A stretch of 50,852 nucleotides of DNA from Thermoplasmatota archaeon (GTDB taxonomy: Archaea; Thermoplasmatota; E2; DHVEG-1), in the NCBI GenBank assembly GCA_025457885.1, contig JALOTN010000003.1, positions 1 through 50,852 of the forward strand. The letters run 5' to 3'. A model generated the notes under the pieces. That model worked only from the letters and a program-made list of their open reading frames with translations, ran no database searches and had not been told where the DNA came from. The position numbers and the translations under genes are program-made. The first letter of the stretch is position 1, and the number at the start of each line of letters is the position of its first letter. Positions 43,057 through 49,948 of this stretch are shown here, piece by piece.

Positions 43057-43081
43057 TGATTCAACTGTTCATGTTGTTCGT

Positions 43082-43166
43082 GCAGGGGTAGCCAAGCCTG
43101 GTCTACGGCGACAGACTCAAGATCTGTTCCTGCAGAGGTTCGGGGGTTCAAATCCCTTCCCCTGCA
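43082..43166 (+). tRNA. tRNA-Leu (CAA)
   Basis: The acceptor stem GCAGGGG pairs with CCCCTGC, and the discriminator base is A. The D-arm is GCC-loop-GGC. The anticodon arm is ACAGA-CTCAAGA-TCTGT with anticodon CAA. A long variable arm (about 14 bases with GCAGAGG) identifies a class II tRNA, here leucine. The T-arm is CGGGG-GTTCAAATC-CC. No intron is seen. CCA is not encoded. The last 18 bases are repeated downstream (see the attachment-site-like repeats). Confidence 0.95.
43149..43166 (+). repeat. attL-like repeat: 3' end of tRNA-Leu
   Basis: The sequence caaatcccttcccctgca ends the tRNA-Leu gene. It recurs with one mismatch at 44306-44323, and its last 11 bases recur exactly at 48930-48940. 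3' ends of tRNA genes are common integration sites for archaeal elements. Confidence 0.65.
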
Positions 43167-43243
43167 TATTTTTATAATAATGAAGAATAATATTATTTGA
43201 ACTGGTGTTTACTGGTAGTACCTCTGAAACAAGGACATAGGAG

Positions 43244-43278
43244 CTATCAATATCACTAGATGATTAATTTATTGATAG
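43244..43278. repeat. Perfect 8-bp inverted repeat between tRNA-Leu and the methyltransferase gene
   Basis: CTATCAAT at 43244-43251 pairs with ATTGATAG at 43271-43278 across a 19-base AT-rich loop. It lies 33 bases beyond the 3' end of the minus-strand methyltransferase gene and could act as a terminator or a protein-binding site. Confidence 0.4.
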
Positions 43279-43310
43279 GGAGAATGAATAATGAATTCAA
43301 TGTAATTTTT

Positions 43311-44081
43311 TCAGATTTCTGAAGTAAAATCGGCGATAACTAGCATCTCAAAATCTTCAGTTGTCAGTTCATCGTTTCTCGAAAAAGCACCAAGTTTTGC
43401 ACCATAAATATCAATTTTTTTAAAACCCAGAGACTTTAACAACCAAGTAATTTCAGATGGAACATAAAACCGCTCATTGCATTCTAATTCCTTTTTATTA
43501 CCAGAGTCATCTTCTACTGTTACAATATTATGGTCTCTAAAAGTCATTAAATCAAAAGTATTACTTCTACAAGTAGTATTTCCTTCATCCTTTGTTGTAT
43601 GAAATTTTTCAACTGAATGATATAAGGGAAATAATCCATTAAGTGTTGTAAAAATCAGCTTACCGGATTTCTTTAATGATTTTGCTGCATTTCTTAATAT
43701 CTCAAAATTCATTTCATCTGTTTCCATCAAACAAAATCCTCCTTCACAAAGCATTATTGCCAAATCAAAATCATCTTTGAAAGGTAATTTTCTTGCATCA
43801 TGTTTTTGAAATTCTATTTCCAGATTTTGTGCTTTTGCTTTTTCTTTTGCCTGCTTTAGTTGTGAATCTGATAAATCAATTCCTATGATATGATATCCTC
43901 TTTTTGTTAATTCAATCGAGTGTCTACCTGTTCCACATCCAATATCTATTATTTTTAGTGATTTATCAAAATCAAGTTCCTTTTCAATGAAGTCACATTC
44001 ACCAATTGTCCCCTTTGTATAGCATTCATTATCATAGTTTTTACCATAATTCTCAAAAAGAGATTCATACCATTTTTTCAT
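43311..44081 (-). CDS. Class I SAM-dependent methyltransferase
   Basis: 256 residues. SAM motif I is IIDIGCGTGRHSIEL (IDIGCGTGR at 45-53), followed by the acidic end of strand 2 in YHIIGIDLS and motif IV in FDLAIMLCEGGFCL. It belongs to the Methyltransf_11/25 group; the substrate is unknown. Its base composition (many A/T-ending codons such as AAA, ATT and TTT) differs strongly from the flanking genes. With the tRNA-end repeats on both sides, that suggests acquisition by integration at tRNA-Leu. Confidence 0.85.
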   Translation of the reverse strand: MKKWYESLFENYGKNYDNECYTKGTIGECDFIEKELDFDKSLKIIDIGCGTGRHSIELTKRGYHIIGIDLSDSQLKQAKEKAKAQNLEIEFQKHDARKLPFKDDFDLAIMLCEGGFCLMETDEMNFEILRNAAKSLKKSGKLIFTTLNGLFPLYHSVEKFHTTKDEGNTTCRSNTFDLMTFRDHNIVTVEDDSGNKKELECNERFYVPSEITWLLKSLGFKKIDIYGAKLGAFSRNDELTTEDFEMLVIADFTSEI

Positions 44082-44305
44082 AGTGTTTTCTCCAGATCAG
44101 TCAAATTTTTTTTTATAATCTGAAGGTAGTCAATAAGAAGTTATTTAATAATCATATCGGATGATAAATCGAAGTGATGATAATGTATTATTTGCCGATT
44201 ATGAATTTCAATAATTATAATATGAGCATTACACTCTTAGCACAGACTTTCGACTTGAACACAACACTCCTATAAAATCAATATTTTTACGAGTAAAAAC
44301 GTGCA

Positions 44306-44323
44306 CAAATCCCTTCCCCTACA
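44306..44323 (+). repeat. Second tRNA-Leu 3'-end copy (attachment-site-like)
   Basis: caaatcccttcccctaca matches the last 18 bases of tRNA-Leu with one substitution (G to A). No acceptor 5' half is nearby, so it is not a tRNA gene. It would be the right end of the segment holding the methyltransferase. Confidence 0.6.
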
Positions 44324-44390
44324 CTCATATGGTTCCAACAGGAGAAAAACTATTATTTTGTACAGGATCACATCTTTGTGGTGAAAAAAA

Positions 44391-44402
44391 GAGATTTGAA
44401 CC
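44391..44402 (-). repeat. Reverse T-arm-like 12-mer, copy 1
   Basis: gagatttgaacc is the reverse complement of ggttcaaatctc, close to the tRNA-Leu T-arm (ggttcaaatccc). Both copies are preceded by an A-run (gaaaaaa). An identical 12-mer lies at 48904-48915, so the two flank the secreted-protein pair. Confidence 0.5.
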
Positions 44403-44460
44403 GCACCAAGTGAAACTAATAATAACCTTTTTTACAAGTCACTCTTTCAATGAAAACAAA

Positions 44461-44470
44461 AATATATAAA
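44461..44470 (+). promoter_or_regulatory. TATA box for the large surface protein gene
   Basis: aatatataaa lies 40 bases before ATG 44510. The ribosome site ggagga at 44495-44500 is 9 bases before the ATG. Confidence 0.5.
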
Positions 44471-44509
44471 CAGACAACAGATTGAAATCAAAGCGGAGGA
44501 AAATAATTT

Positions 44510-47281
44510 ATGAAAAACAAACTTATAGTGATAATAATCACCCTTTTGATGATATTAACAATCTTCCAAAATACACCAAATAACTTCATCGGTCAAAGCA
44601 GCATCCCTAACGAAAATAACCTACTTCTCGCTCAGTACACCTTGATCGAACGAAACGCAACCTGGAACAAATACTACAACGCCTCTACCGGAGAATACGC
44701 CCTCGAACTCTACACCGATGAGATCAACTACCAAGACGCAAATCATACCTGGAGCCCTATCGACACCACCATCATCAGGTTAGACCAGACTATAGATGGA
44801 CAATCATACACATATGGGATGAACAGATCACGATACCAAATCTTTTTTTCCGAAACCAGCACCGATACTAACAGACTCTATTCCTTAGTACAAGGTTCAT
44901 ATATTCTCTCGATGACACCAACCGATTCTCTTCACTTCAGCGATGGCACCCCTATCCATAACAGACAGTCAACAACCGCTGTCACAGAAAATAACACAAT
45001 CCTTTATCCTGATCTCTACGGAGATGAAATCCATCTATTACTCTCTTGTCAAACCTCTAGAATAAGATCCCTCTATCTCATCAGCAACACAAGCATACTC
45101 CCACCACCAGACAACGAGAACTGCACCCTTGATATCACAGAAACACTGTACCTGAACACCACGGATCCCCAGACAGAAAACCAAAGTCTAGGGATAACAT
45201 ACGGACCAAATCAAACCCTCTTTAAAAATTACGGAGTCTGGGAGAATCAAACAATCACCACACCTGAAACCATCACCTTCAAAGACCATGAAAATACGAC
45301 CGTTTTCATTATCCCACGCCTCTACGCCTGGGATAACAGTTCTCAAGATTCAACGATCCTCCTCAACAAAACCCTCCACATGACACTCTCTGAGCAGCTT
45401 TGGATCCAAATCCATGTCCCCTACCTTTGGCTATCCAACCCCAACAGGGTATCACCCATCGCTATCGACCCGACCATCACAATCTATGCTGATTCGACAG
45501 ATGGCTATCTCTATAAATCCCATGCGAACTATACGACTGCCTGGGCATCCCCCACCGGAACCGTTCAAGATAGCAGCGACGCTCTCACCATCGGTCAACG
45601 AATCTCTACACCACCCCTCACCTTGTATACCATTGAACGAGGTTTCCTCTTCTTCAACACCTCCACCATCCATGACAACGCCAGTATCACCACCGTCAGT
45701 ATCTCCCTTTATGGGAAGAACAAACAGATCACCTCCCAAGAGTTCAATCTCACCATCCAAAACGGCCAACCCACCAACCCACACTCCCCATTACAAACCA
45801 CCGACTACTACCAGGGAAACTACACCGGAGATGGCGGCTCTATGAACACCTCAAATTTCACCACCACGGGATACAACACCATCACCCTCAACACACAAGG
45901 ACGATCCTGGGTCAACCTCACCGGAACCACAAAACTCTGTCTCCGCAGCAGCAGAGACATCAACCAAAACACTCCAATCAACCCAGGTTCAAACGAATAT
46001 ATACAAACATACACAACTGAGAAAGGAATAGGGTACATACCCAAATGCATCATCACCTACATGTTACCACTCTCTATCACCATTAATTTCGCGGGAAACC
46101 TCAGCGACAAAGGCGGTCCCTACTGGCAGCCACCAGGAGAAAACATAATACTTGATGACGTCTGGAGCGACGGGTACTACACCAACGACAGTCGACAACA
46201 GGAGGACTGGATTTACATTAATCTGTCCGTTCTCCATCCCACCGGGGCAAGCAATCAATACACCGCATCAGATGTCTCCCATGTCTGGCTCCAATGGCTC
46301 AATGACTCTGCATGGATGAACTGGAGCTACGAATTCACACAAGCAGGGAACTACTGGGAATACAACACCAATGGGTCTATCTCAACCCATGAAGGATATG
46401 ATTATTCATTCAACATTGTCGCAAATGACACCGCCAATAACTCATATAATCGATGGTGGAACAAAACCGGTATCGGTGGTATTTATACTCGAAGGTTTGT
46501 GCAACTCGGATGCAATCCAATTAATATCAGTTATACGCCTTTGTATCTTTTTAATTATACCACTGGAACGGGAAATCCTCCAACCTATGGTTTAAACGAT
46601 ATAACGAAGGGTGATCGGCTGCATCATGATCAAGGTGCTGCAACAACTGAAAATGATACGGGATATCTTTCCTATTATGACCAAAATTTAAATGAAATAA
46701 TCCATTTACGATATTGTTCAGGAGCAGTTGGATATTTCTTTGATGATGCTATATCTGTGACTTCTTTTGAATTAAAAAACATATATTATCACATCTGGTC
46801 ATCTAGTTCCGACGGTGACATATCAATATCTTGGTTTAAAACAAGAAGAACTGCAGTTAGTGGTGCTCCAGGAGATGATAATGTAGATTTTGATTATTCT
46901 ACTGATGGTCGCTCAAAAATTCATTGGGATAATGGTTTAGATGACTATTCCAATGATTATTATTTATGTACTGCTTTTAGAAATTCAACCGCTGTAGAAT
47001 ATAATTTTTCTGATAATACTATGTTCGAATTTCTTCTACAAGCACAGATAACAGACCATCCGAGCATAATTTGTAATCGTTCAATAACTTCATTTATCCT
47101 CATCAATATCCCAAATAATTCTACTTTAAATGCCATCGATTCTGACAATGATAGACTCAATGATTGGCAGGAGTTATTTCAGACATATACAAATCCATAT
47201 CTAGCGGACACCGATAATGATGGGATAAATGATGAAAACGAGGTTGAAAACAGCACTGACCCAAATGATTATACCAATTAA
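44510..47281 (+). CDS. Large secreted surface protein with DNRLRE-like and calcium-binding regions
   Basis: 923 residues. The signal segment (about 3-20, LIVIIITLLMILTIF) is followed by an N-terminal region with many Asn-x-Thr/Ser sequons. About 325-515 resembles a DNRLRE-type domain (GTVQDSSDALTIGQR, YTIERGFLFFNTST). Ig-like segments lie at about 540-650. The last 50 residues carry thrombospondin-3-type calcium repeats (DSDNDRLNDW, DTDNDGINDENE). Codon and base composition change near 46480: GC-richer before, AT-rich after. This suggests a mosaic gene. It probably forms or decorates the cell envelope. Confidence 0.7.
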   Translation: MKNKLIVIIITLLMILTIFQNTPNNFIGQSSIPNENNLLLAQYTLIERNATWNKYYNASTGEYALELYTDEINYQDANHTWSPIDTTIIRLDQTIDGQSYTYGMNRSRYQIFFSETSTDTNRLYSLVQGSYILSMTPTDSLHFSDGTPIHNRQSTTAVTENNTILYPDLYGDEIHLLLSCQTSRIRSLYLISNTSILPPPDNENCTLDITETLYLNTTDPQTENQSLGITYGPNQTLFKNYGVWENQTITTPETITFKDHENTTVFIIPRLYAWDNSSQDSTILLNKTLHMTLSEQLWIQIHVPYLWLSNPNRVSPIAIDPTITIYADSTDGYLYKSHANYTTAWASPTGTVQDSSDALTIGQRISTPPLTLYTIERGFLFFNTSTIHDNASITTVSISLYGKNKQITSQEFNLTIQNGQPTNPHSPLQTTDYYQGNYTGDGGSMNTSNFTTTGYNTITLNTQGRSWVNLTGTTKLCLRSSRDINQNTPINPGSNEYIQTYTTEKGIGYIPKCIITYMLPLSITINFAGNLSDKGGPYWQPPGENIILDDVWSDGYYTNDSRQQEDWIYINLSVLHPTGASNQYTASDVSHVWLQWLNDSAWMNWSYEFTQAGNYWEYNTNGSISTHEGYDYSFNIVANDTANNSYNRWWNKTGIGGIYTRRFVQLGCNPINISYTPLYLFNYTTGTGNPPTYGLNDITKGDRLHHDQGAATTENDTGYLSYYDQNLNEIIHLRYCSGAVGYFFDDAISVTSFELKNIYYHIWSSSSDGDISISWFKTRRTAVSGAPGDDNVDFDYSTDGRSKIHWDNGLDDYSNDYYLCTAFRNSTAVEYNFSDNTMFEFLLQAQITDHPSIICNRSITSFILINIPNNSTLNAIDSDNDRLNDWQELFQTYTNPYLADTDNDGINDENEVENSTDPNDYTN

Positions 47282-47394
47282 TGATCTTATCATCATGATG
47301 TGCACACTATATTAAAAAAGGTAAGAAATTTCTCACATATTTTAAATTGTAAACTTAAAAAAAAATTTCTTGTTATAAAAGAAAATAAATATTA

Positions 47395-47407
47395 TTTATA
47401 TAAAATA
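47395..47407 (+). promoter_or_regulatory. TATA box for the PKD-domain protein gene
   Basis: tttatataaaata lies about 60 bases before the chosen ATG at 47461. aaggggac provides a ribosome site 7 bases before that ATG. Confidence 0.4.
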
Positions 47408-47460
47408 AAAATAGGTAAAAGATAAATAGTAGAATAAACATGATTACAAGGGGACGAAAG

Positions 47461-48858
47461 ATGAGAAAAAGACAAATCGATTCATTATTAATAATCACAT
47501 TGTTCTTCCTTCTCACATTAGTACCAATTGAAATCGAAGGATTTCAGATTTTAAAGATACAAAATTCAAATTCATTAAATTCTTTAAGCATCAATAAATA
47601 TATCTCTCCTGAAGAGAAAAAATCGGATACCATTATTTGGGATAATTACGAATATAATAGTACCGGTGCTAAGGCCTGGGCTTCACAGTTAGACGTTATA
47701 TATCCTTTTAATTGCCAAGTTGGTGATGATTTCATGCTAAATGATGATATGCAAGTGACTGGAGTTCATTGGTGGGGTAAGTTCTGGGGCGGATATCCGC
47801 CCTGGCCGAATCCCACTGATTTTAATATCATATTTTATGCCGATGATGGAACAGGGAATATGCCAACCGGGGCAGGAATGTATGACCCGACATCCACTGC
47901 TCTTGCTGTCTATTTCATACCCGATGTCACTGGTGTTCTATGTGGACCTTACGATTATTGGTTCGAATACAATATTACATTACCTGATCCATTCGTTGTC
48001 ACAGCTAATACCAAGTATTGGATTGCAATACAGGCGGTATTTCCTTGGACTCCGCAATGGGGTTGGTCTACTAATGCAGATAATCCTGATCAACTCCATG
48101 TCCCAGTGCAAGGATTTCCTATGATGGGTGAACCTTACTGGACCAACATTGGCAACTTTGGAGATATGGCGTTCCAGCTCTATGGAGAGCCGAACTATGC
48201 TCCCCTTTCTCCCGTGATACATGGTCCATATAATGGAGACGTCAACATCGAATATGATTTCTGGACCGACCCGATCATAGACCCATATGGTGATTCTCTC
48301 TATATCCGATGGGATTGGGATGATGGGAACATCACCGACTGGATTGGCCCGTATTCATCTGGTTCTATTGTGTACGCATCCCATGCGTGGGAGGATCCTG
48401 GTATGTACGATATTCGAGCTCAACTCAAAGGTACTGGTGGAGAGAGCGACTGGTCAGAGCCACATACCATAACCATTGTTCAAAATCAACCGCCATCTAC
48501 TCCAATACTCACTGGTCCTTCACAAGGGAAACGAGGTATTTGTTATAATTACGAAATTGAATCTGTTGACCCTGAAAACGAAAACATCTCCTATTACATT
48601 GACTGGGGCGATGAGACAAATACTGGTTGGATTGGACCATTTCCCTCAGGACAAGAACAAACCCTAAACCACACCTGGAACAAAAAAGGGACATATACGA
48701 TTAAAACAAAAGCACAGGATAGTCATGACCAAGAAAGCGACTGGGGCACCCTCACAGTTACAATGCCCTACGAACCACCACAGTTTCCGTTCATCCAATG
48801 GATATTAGAACGATTCCCCCATGCGTTCCCATTACTAAGATATCTTCTAAATTTTTAA
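47461..48858 (+). CDS. Secreted protein with two PKD-like domains and a C-terminal FP-x-LRYLL motif
   Basis: 465 residues from ATG 47461 (ATG 47440 is also open). The signal peptide is RQIDSLLIITLFFLLTLVPI. Residues about 50-240 form a beta-sandwich with DFNIIFYADDGTG and TKYWIAIQAVFPW, a carbohydrate-binding-like layout. Two PKD-type modules follow (WDWDDGNITDWIGPY ... YASHAWEDPGMYDI; IDWGDETNTGWIGPF ... NHTWNKKGTYTI). The last 26 residues end QWILERFPHAFPLLRYLLN, which looks like a C-terminal sorting or anchoring signal. It lies at the right end of the tRNA-Leu-bounded segment. No catalytic site is recognised. Confidence 0.7.
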   Translation: MRKRQIDSLLIITLFFLLTLVPIEIEGFQILKIQNSNSLNSLSINKYISPEEKKSDTIIWDNYEYNSTGAKAWASQLDVIYPFNCQVGDDFMLNDDMQVTGVHWWGKFWGGYPPWPNPTDFNIIFYADDGTGNMPTGAGMYDPTSTALAVYFIPDVTGVLCGPYDYWFEYNITLPDPFVVTANTKYWIAIQAVFPWTPQWGWSTNADNPDQLHVPVQGFPMMGEPYWTNIGNFGDMAFQLYGEPNYAPLSPVIHGPYNGDVNIEYDFWTDPIIDPYGDSLYIRWDWDDGNITDWIGPYSSGSIVYASHAWEDPGMYDIRAQLKGTGGESDWSEPHTITIVQNQPPSTPILTGPSQGKRGICYNYEIESVDPENENISYYIDWGDETNTGWIGPFPSGQEQTLNHTWNKKGTYTIKTKAQDSHDQESDWGTLTVTMPYEPPQFPFIQWILERFPHAFPLLRYLLNF

Positions 48859-48903
48859 AGGCTGTTTCATTTTTCTATCTTTGTCAATTTTTAGAGAAAA
48901 AAC

Positions 48904-48915
48904 GAGATTTGAACC
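48904..48915 (-). repeat. Reverse T-arm-like 12-mer, copy 2
   Basis: gagatttgaacc, identical to 44391-44402, again after an A-run (gaaaaaac). It stands four bases before the degenerate tRNA-Leu 3' end. Confidence 0.5.
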
Positions 48916-48918
48916 TTA

Positions 48919-48940
48919 GGTTGAAGTCACTTCCCCTGCA
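48919..48940 (+). repeat. Third, degenerate tRNA-Leu 3'-end copy (attR-like)
   Basis: ggttgaagtcacttcccctgca matches the corresponding 22 bases of tRNA-Leu at 19 positions, and both are followed by tat and an AT-rich stretch. The next gene ends at 48947 on the opposite strand, so the repeat coincides with a gene boundary. Confidence 0.55.
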
Positions 48941-48946
48941 TATATT

Positions 48947-49420
48947 TTATCGATTATTTTTTTTCCTTCTTTTATGTCTTACTTGATAAAATCCAAAGCA
49001 ACCTAACATCACAAAATAACTTATCACAAGCATATTGCCATATACTTTTCCGACCAGAAATCCATACCAATTCAACGCAATACATCCAATCTGAAGCAGA
49101 ATGAGATACACAATTAAACCCCTGGGCCAATGATCGGGATGATGAACCGGTTTCTTTTTCGTTAATAAACGATACCAAAGATCATAGAGAAGAAAGACAA
49201 GTATCAGGAAACCAGTTATCAGTCGTCCGCTGTCACCCCCAATGTAAATGTTCAATATCCAAAGTAGCATGAATGGCACTAATTGGAGACTAAAAACTAG
49301 TGCTAATTTTAATTCCTCTTTCTCTCGTTGATAGGAGCGTAATACATACACAACACATAAAAAAGCATAAAAAACAAGTGAAAAAACTACAACAAGATTG
49401 TCGATGAGGATGTTGTTCAC
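48947..49420 (-). CDS. Four-helix membrane protein of unknown function
   Basis: 157 residues with membrane segments near 8-26, 42-60, 65-85 and 100-145 (the last probably two close helices). Basic loops (RSYQREKEELK, LLTKKKPVHHPDHWPRG) and a basic C-terminus (RHKRRKKNNR) suggest cytoplasmic ends. The HHPDHW cluster could bind a metal. No family is recognised. Its 3' end lies 7 bases from the attR-like repeat. Confidence 0.6.
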   Translation of the reverse strand: MNNILIDNLVVVFSLVFYAFLCVVYVLRSYQREKEELKLALVFSLQLVPFMLLWILNIYIGGDSGRLITGFLILVFLLYDLWYRLLTKKKPVHHPDHWPRGLIVYLILLQIGCIALNWYGFLVGKVYGNMLVISYFVMLGCFGFYQVRHKRRKKNNR

Positions 49421-49474: not shown

Positions 49475-49816
49475 TCAACCACACACGGATTTTTTTTCGA
49501 TGAGTTTTATCAGTTTCACCAGTCGTTTTTCGTCAATATCCTCTACTGAGTTGATTTTTATATGCCGCATTGTTTTCCCCGTTCCCTCAAAAAAACCTCT
49601 TTCATCTGCATTCAAACCCGTGATTGCAAAACCAACATGCACACGAGTCTTCATCGCTGCAAGATAAAATTTTCCTCCTGTAAATGTAATGACGCCCCAC
49701 ATCATTTTTTCGTCACAAATTGGTAGAGTTTCATAGAAGATTTCTCGAACTTTTCGTAAAATTTCTTTTTGAGGTGATTTTTGTTTTGAGATATACTCAT
49801 CAACGTGTTTATCCAT
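49475..49816 (-). CDS. DUF1801 (YdhG-like) family protein
   Basis: 113 residues from ATG 49816, preceded by ggag 7 bases upstream; the frame is open to 49837. Features of the family are VDEYISKQKSPQKEILRKVREI at the start, then DEKMMWGVITFTGGKFYLAAM and GTGKTMRHIKINSVEDID near the end. DUF1801 has an alpha/beta fold related to iron-chaperone-like YdhG/frataxin-fold proteins. Function is not established. Confidence 0.8.
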   Translation of the reverse strand: MDKHVDEYISKQKSPQKEILRKVREIFYETLPICDEKMMWGVITFTGGKFYLAAMKTRVHVGFAITGLNADERGFFEGTGKTMRHIKINSVEDIDEKRLVKLIKLIEKKSVCG

Positions 49817-49948
49817 ATCAGAGCTCCACAACGTCAATAATTGAAAATAGTCTTCTGGTTGATAACATCTGTGTTTTCTCTAACAATTTTCGTATGAAGA
49901 GAATTTAAATAGAGCAGGATGTTTTAATTATGCATGGGTAGGAAAAAG

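Follow-up and report, generated by a model that had tools for sequence, protein, structure and literature searches.

Tycheposons of Prochlorococcus are small elements, some of them non-autonomous, that carry partial tRNA repeats and are moved by tyrosine recombinases; they are cyanobacterial elements with characteristic integrase and cargo modules, and belong to a different domain of life than the archaeon studied here. The pdif (XerC/XerD) modules of Acinetobacter plasmids are gene-sized, flanked by short Xer-type sites and mobilised in trans by the host Xer recombinase. Archaeal integrons with attC sites and the integron integrase IntI have been reported (Ghaly et al. 2022, PMC9668308), and the archaeal tyrosine recombinases have been reviewed (PMC8371274). 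We analysed a DNA stretch of 50,852 nucleotides from a Thermoplasmatota archaeon (the window), in which copies of the 3' end of tRNA-Leu(CAA) recur downstream of the tRNA gene. The window is contig 46 of a 2.07 Mb genome bin (G000; other genomes are labelled G001 and onwards, loci L029 and onwards). We assign a probability of roughly 0.78 to the reading that tRNA-Leu(CAA) stands at the head of a single gene-cassette array in the window, that each cassette closes with a copy of the tRNA's final 22 bases (the core), and that such cassettes likely move as circles inserted within the core by a predicted tyrosine recombinase. The most probable interpretation is an integron-like gene-cassette system with tRNA-Leu as the insertion site, no attC-like fold and no adjacent integron integrase found. 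A literature search, judged by titles and abstract openings and with subscription journals mostly outside its coverage, returned no account of such arrays; neither "tRNA" nor "Thermoplasmat" occurs in the accessible main text of PMC9668308, and the term "cassette" is absent from the accessible text of PMC8371274. Several points were directly observed. The core recurs in arrays, with neighbouring copies almost always on the same strand; one cassette was found at three places in two genera with the same ends; homology breaks off at the tRNA 3' end; and the right half of the core is statistically linked to the tRNA heading the array.

The tRNA-Leu(CAA) gene heading the array lies on the forward strand at 43081-43167 (ARAGORN; 43082-43166 according to Rfam), and nothing but tRNAs reached the Rfam gathering score in the window, L042 and L029. 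Its T-arm and 3' acceptor strand form the first core (GGTTCAAATCCCTTCCCCTGCA, 43145-43166), recovered by both pattern search and weight matrix. The second core, decayed and with four mismatches, follows on the same strand at 44302-44323; it was found by 22-mer match and weight matrix and aligns with a one-mismatch core of G001. The third, also on the forward strand, is contained in an inverted T-arm site of the type termed class E (GAGATTTGAACC-TTA-GGTTGAAGTCACTTCCCCTGCA, 48904-48940; class E pattern search), in which the 22-mer copy at 48919-48940 has three mismatches, i.e. 19 of 22 positions match. The last 18 bases of the tRNA recur with one mismatch at 44306-44323 and with three at 48923-48940; when up to three mismatches were allowed, this 18-mer matched three times in the window (tRNA counted), whereas 100 shuffles predict 0.04 matches. 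The same three sites, at 52.4, 35.2 and 24.2 bits, were returned by a weight matrix derived from 106 sites at other loci, none of them in the window. The next-best window score was −9.8, the highest score among 40 Markov-model random windows was 11.6, and no further core was detected by the matrix beyond 48940. A chance origin of the window repeats was ruled out by the shuffle expectation and these scores. The 12-mer GAGATTTGAACC is present at both 44391 and 48904. A first-pass annotation, made from the sequence alone, had reported the one-mismatch 18-base tail copy, the degenerate 22-base copy and the identical 12-mers, all of which were borne out; it had also seen no integrase, and no window open reading frame (ORF) matched any of 41 integrase-region queries at 1e-6. 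Its observation is confirmed and was understated; copies of this site are spread over the whole genome and the family.

At up to three mismatches, the core was present in all nine genomes of the genus with 7-38 copies each (tRNA genes counted), and the core read backwards gave no match in any of them. In the family (f1), 38 of 45 genomes carry the core at up to one mismatch. Across 80 genomes of the class, a 21-mer at up to one mismatch numbered 2-26 copies per genome within the genus, 0-15 in the other members of the family and no more than three elsewhere. Exact matches to the core together with the arm preceding it came, in public records, from Thermoplasmata, Thermoplasmatales and Euryarchaeota archaea, two of which have sediment in their isolate name (LacPavin SED3, AlinenSediments). 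One viral contig, IMG/VR contig IMGVR_UViG_3300031587_000020, has a core and carries it (L259:6755-6776) just behind ORFs that look phage-like, as read from the ORF list, and no ORF of this contig matched the integrase queries. A viral source was rejected; no viral relative of the Xer-like candidate described below was confirmed.

The array survey comprised 81 stretches (the window and 80 others), seven of them without a site and hence 74 site-bearing, with a total of 149 sites at up to four mismatches (tRNA genes counted). Neighbouring sites within 6 kb were on the same strand in 68 of 69 pairs, 49-5386 bp apart with a median of 1.09 kb; one of the 69 pairs includes a tRNA-Gly that passed the mismatch limit (L039), and three units measure only about 50 nt (49-51) between cores. 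The arrays are headed by tRNA-Leu CAA, UAA (intron-bearing, anticodon read by eye), GAG, CAG and UAG, and arrays in stretches that hold no tRNA also exist, e.g., L042 with six sites. The "two tandem integrated segments" of the first-pass annotation are not supported as a local feature; they are one array of a family-wide system, whose sites are also found in tRNA-free stretches. The window's own genome carries, directly after tRNA-Gly(TCC), an array with four further sites behind a 118-nt tRNA (L029:12439-12556, Rfam) that is by sequence an intron-bearing tRNA-Leu. At L045:817-838, the bases before the core resemble, by eye, a decayed 3' half of tRNA-Leu(CAA); dead tRNA genes may therefore head some of the arrays.

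The sites were picked by the core, so that its conservation is partly built in. A loose 8-base near-palindrome pattern precedes the core in 53 of 121 non-tRNA sites (mostly TACCGGTA or AACCGGTA, also TACTAGTA and TACATGTA), and in 44 of these 53 it stands exactly 6 nt before the core. The remaining 68 sites include the same arm with a different first base, and other arms. In the window, the near-palindrome TACGAGTA (44288-44295, forward strand) belongs to the 3' arm of the first cassette and stands 6 nt before core 2, the position taken at other sites by TACCGGTA, TACTAGTA or TACATGTA. A T-rich run is often found downstream of the core. Arm classes A to D were named by eye; window core 2 belongs to class D and core 3 to class E. 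The latter is an inverted T-arm repeat (GAGATTTGAACT-TGA-AGTTGAAATCTC-TTCCCCTGCA). A search of 99 stretches matched it 19 times, counting two palindromic sites read in reverse, whereas the reversed pattern never matched. A second repeat near the arrays, ACTGGTAAATTCGTGTTCCCTTCCCGACGGGAGCA, looks like arm plus core without the T-loop bases; it had nine hits in 99 stretches at up to seven mismatches (L145:7769, L148:4918, L148:5484, L162:1623, L182:7162, L189:2631, L199:8521, L199:9681 and L200:9164) and none in the reversed control. Single-strand DNA folds were computed for six sites on both strands (82 nt), and 11 of the 12 were no more stable than shuffles (z −0.28 to 1.43). The imperfect single-strand hairpin of attC sites was not seen in these 11, and attC-type folding was rejected; the exception is the bottom strand of window core 2 (z −1.84), for which 5 of 200 shuffles were as good.

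The arrays share with Tycheposons small, tRNA-tail-marked and partly non-autonomous units, but differ in being composed of gene-sized cassettes that use one family-wide core and five tRNA-Leu isoacceptors. With pdif modules they have in common gene-sized units between short sites and, on our reading, a recombinase supplied in trans (the candidate is Xer-like), whereas the core is derived from a tRNA gene and the sites are direct instead of alternating. Integron arrays and integrons without an integrase (CALINs), as presented in the accessible text of PMC9668308, are similar in their small genes in one orientation, one recombination site per unit, the absence of an adjacent integrase in most cases and mobile cargo; the same-strand pairs and the mobility data given below likewise describe an array of mobile cassettes in one orientation. 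Unlike integrons as described there, the site is the T-arm/acceptor core of tRNA-Leu, mostly no more structured than shuffles, and tRNA-Leu genes, instead of an attI adjoining intI, are the place of insertion, with no IntI found beside. The tRNA-targeted integrative elements and islands covered by the accessible text of PMC8371274 also insert at the tRNA 3' end and leave the tRNA whole with a displaced tail copy at the far end, and in our arrays too a direct repeat of the tRNA 3' end stands at both ends beside an intact tRNA. In contrast to such elements, the units here consist of one or a few genes without an integrase, form arrays of up to six sites per stretch and are also found where the stretch has no tRNA.

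The cassette 1 body (43167-44301, forward strand), which carries a methyltransferase gene, is also present in G001 (same genus, L041) and G031 (another genus, L178). In the three pairs the identity inside the unit is 94, 92 and 95%, versus 30-44% after alignment for the 100-base flanks, which are thus unrelated, and homology stops within 2 nt of the core at both ends. The unit follows tRNA-Leu(CAA) in the window and other core copies in G001 and G031, and the G001 contig with tRNA-Leu(CAA) (L031) does not carry it. The PFK-TruA region upstream of the tRNA is 79% identical between G000 and G001; this synteny upstream of tRNA-Leu(CAA) is kept in congeners, and homology ends at the tRNA 3' end. 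A blastn comparison of the loci gave 332 homologous segments (at least 150 bp and at least 70%). Of their ends, 55 reach the core of two tRNA genes from the upstream side and none that of two tRNA genes from the downstream side, so the sequence following tRNA-Leu is not inherited together with the tRNA. Segment bodies start at a core in both members, with the alignment breaking off there, in 25 cases, including six of a tRNA versus an array site and the three methyltransferase pairs. Site-specific insertion at the tRNA 3' end and the non-autonomous nature of the units, both proposed in the first-pass annotation, are supported. The empty site that it had envisaged, with tRNA-Leu(CAA) joined to the gene at 48947, was not found; four of the nine genus genomes carry this gene.

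Strand exchange is likely to take place inside the core, because the right half of the core tends to follow the heading tRNA-Leu. The 20 tRNA-Leu genes of the GAG, CAG and UAG types have T11 and G13 in the core, except for the CAG gene of L183, and those with CAA and UAA mostly have C11 and T13. A G at core position 13 was found in 6 of 8 sites under G13 tRNA-Leu heads versus 3 of 26 under T13 heads (Fisher p = 0.0014; 0.003 when permuting loci), with the L039 row (tRNA-Gly) omitted and L183 grouped by its core letters and not its anticodon; grouping by anticodon, with the L039 row kept, gave 6/9 versus 4/26 (p = 0.007). Beyond the distance cuts of this test lie L034:11698, which is contrary, and L234:7293 and two L032 sites, which are supporting. 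For class E sites, without the two reverse-read palindromic hits (L167, L234), the figures were 6/7 versus 1/10 (p = 0.004); L167, L240 and the window enter both tests, which therefore overlap, and the array heads were assigned by the analyst. The first core base appears, by eye, to be tied to the cassette arm, and base 5 of class E sites differs from the C of the tRNA in 16 of 17 sites. On the simplest reading, exchange would occur between about core positions 5 and 13, i.e. in the T-loop and the 3' strand of the T-stem, and the right half of the target would be retained at the far end.

In the proposed mechanism, cassettes would move as circular intermediates, which a tyrosine recombinase, a class predicted here, would insert by strand exchange inside the 22-base core. 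Elements that carry an integrase and turn up occasionally would provide the recombinase in trans. A complete core would remain after every insertion, and therefore the tRNA would stay intact and the array could keep growing. No integrase was found beside the cores of the window's genome; this genome has three Phage_integrase matches and, of two checked for tRNA tails, one lies beside tRNA-Val and one beside none. Integrase-like ORFs are present in 7 of the 74 site-bearing stretches, directly before a core in L185, as a fragment overlapping a core on the other strand by tRNA-Val in L158, before tRNA-Gly and tRNA-Leu(UAA) in L204, and farther off in L045, L183, L195 and L200; the element-internal integrase of integrative elements is accordingly rare here and lacking in the window. 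L171 has an integrase-like ORF before a core variant with one base deleted, which was not counted in the site scan. Other integrases adjoin tRNA-Cys, -Val, -Gly, -Arg and -Thr in these genomes. An Xer-like protein of about 190 amino acids with a Phage_integrase domain ends approximately 41 nt before a core in G002 and G012 (88% identical; the G012 core has one base deleted). Its best model was archaeal XerA, below the cut-off (138-141 of 220 bits), and among solved structures it matched the XerC-like and XerA chains 4a8e and 5hxy. On the integron integrase model TIGR02249, on which it was the sole recombinase family scored, it reached 88.6-89.9 bits, far below the cut-off of 265, so that no IntI with an adjacent attI was found in this one site-adjacent family. 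Standing beside a core in 2 of 19 places, the Xer-like protein is a weak candidate for the recombinase. An integrase dedicated to and residing in the arrays was rejected, given the seven stretches mentioned, the single ORF directly before a core (L185) and the 17 of 19 core-free homologue places. Two more integrases were also observed: one of the window's own genome (L168:8120-9523, G000:C56) is interrupted by one TAA stop, and a second integrase in L185 (2794-3891), on the same contig as the Xer-like candidate, is divided between two ORFs and reaches to about 45 nt from tRNA-Cys, upstream of it.

Integrase-bearing elements inserted serially at tRNA-Leu could also have lost their integrases and most of their genes, leaving gene-sized remnants between tail copies. 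Such accretion and decay would be in line with the integrases found beside other tRNA genes, with the tandem integration known in archaea (accessible text of PMC8371274) and with the decayed window cores; however, one and the same 1.1-kb unit, matching at both of its ends, would not be expected as a remnant in three contexts and in two genera, and the spacings clustered at gene size (three of only 49-51 nt), the arrays in tRNA-free stretches and the 25 segment pairs with bodies starting at cores also speak against it, so we consider this history unlikely. A further possibility is that dispersed tRNA fragments undergo general homologous recombination or gene conversion, which shuffles the genes while the core stays passive. 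The repeats at both unit ends permit this in principle, and no dedicated enzyme was identified. Nevertheless, 22 bp is very short for RecA-type exchange, while the constant 6-nt distance between near-palindrome and core at many sites (44 of 53 pattern-matching sites, 121 examined) and the split of arm-linked and tRNA-linked positions within one core point to a defined exchange region, making passive shuffling very improbable. We give next to no credence to a canonical integron that lacks its integrase and whose repeats are attC sites used by an integron integrase, even though small-gene arrays on one strand and integrase-like ORFs in few stretches are as for archaeal integrons in the accessible text of PMC9668308. 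The bottom-strand fold of window core 2 is fairly stable and speaks for it, but the stability of the other 11 folds does not exceed that of shuffles. The attC core motif is GTTRRRY, which the core GTTCAAA does not fit; the core is, moreover, a tRNA-Leu tail with isoacceptor variants, and the site-adjacent recombinase family scored 88.6 bits, far from the integron integrase cut-off.

The interpretation as a tRNA-Leu-based gene-cassette system has to be set against several results that weigh against it. Both downstream window cores are decayed, and therefore the window array may be immobile now. Both ends were matched across genomes for one cassette only (three pairs), and neither a circle nor two strains differing by a cassette at one site were seen. 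In 17 of 19 places with homologues of the Xer-like protein, the stretch (up to 1.5 kb on each side) had no core; the window's genome has no such protein, and the congener G003 (84% complete) no Phage_integrase match at E 0.001. Exceptions to the position-13 coupling amount to 2/8 and 3/26, plus the contrary L034 site beyond the distance cut, and position 11 alone was not significant (p = 0.095). The genomes are mostly draft metagenome bins.

The cargo of the window array starts with an S-adenosylmethionine-dependent methyltransferase of 256 amino acids (43311-44081, reverse strand; Pfam Methyltransf_25, 3.6e-21) in cassette 1. Right after core 2 stands a recurring 79-nt head (44324-44402, forward strand) that ends in the inverted T-arm motif GAGATTTGAACC (44391-44402) and has 77-81% matches at the same post-core position in L033, L156 and L183 (twice). 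Cassette 2 encodes, on the forward strand, a 923-amino-acid protein with a hydrophobic N-terminus (44510-47281, ORF translation) and a 472-amino-acid protein with DUF7901 and PKD domains (47440-48858, Pfam). Homologues of the former with 34-36% identity are found in L188, before a class E site, and in L032, beside tRNA-Leu(CAA) of G002, and a weaker one in L168, a stretch without a core; a 69% identical homologue of the latter starts about 54 nt after another core of the same genome (L166). The methyltransferase of the first segment and the two large proteins of the second are present as initially annotated, the two large proteins having hydrophobic N-termini. Directly after core 3, on the reverse strand, lies the gene for a 157-amino-acid LtrA-like membrane protein (48947-49420; Pfam LtrA E 0.013, below cut-off), followed on the same strand by that for a 120-amino-acid DUF5655/DUF1801 protein (49475-49837), both of them cargo elsewhere. 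The former follows a core in G004 (L154), G008 (L193) and G025 (L177); the latter comes after a core in G003 (L163), and cores flank it in G024 (L176) and G027 (L239), the L239 copy being 73% identical. Position 48940 had been taken as the outer cargo boundary, but because both genes follow or lie between cores in other genomes, the window array probably runs on past it. Relatives carrying the same genes away from tRNA repeats had been named in the first-pass annotation as evidence against integration; mostly this was not what we found, as the closest relatives found of the methyltransferase, 48947, 49475 and 47440 genes adjoin cores, although the two large proteins have weaker relatives in the core-free stretches L168 and L170 as well. 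Taken as a whole, that annotation's interpretation was partly supported.

Between neighbouring sites of all stretches, 103 ORFs of at least 70 amino acids were found, 70 of them on the site strand. A hydrophobic N-terminus, assessed by a crude heuristic on ORFs of at least 100 amino acids, was predicted for 40 of 93 cassette ORFs versus 93 of 463 background ORFs (p = 8e-6), so the delivery of surface proteins suggested in the first-pass annotation holds for part of the cargo. Of the 103 cassette ORFs, 89 were scanned with Pfam and PADLOC; among the matches listed, which cover the 25 largest of 82 Pfam families, 13 ORFs matched NosD and 12 matched beta-helix models (overlapping). Rarer cargo, found once or a few times each, includes methyltransferases, flavodoxins, an immunity-like protein and others. 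The cassettes carry one gene or a small set of genes, and many of the encoded proteins have a hydrophobic N-terminus like that of exported proteins.

We lean slightly towards the broader view that a second, archaea-native gene-capture platform exists beside integrons. In it, tRNA-Leu genes would serve as the insertion platform, the cassette site would be a T-arm core plus an often palindromic arm, double-stranded exchange would take place in the T-arm, several arm classes (A-E) would share one core, and the whole family would exchange surface proteins, methyltransferases and other single genes. If this is true, the signature of a tRNA-tail core plus arm could be searched for in other lineages, and the exchange point and the missing recombinase would become directly testable. 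Archaea would then have a tRNA-based gene-cassette system independent of integrons, which would explain the turnover of single genes, many of them for exported proteins, in one lineage with hardly any array-adjacent integrase.

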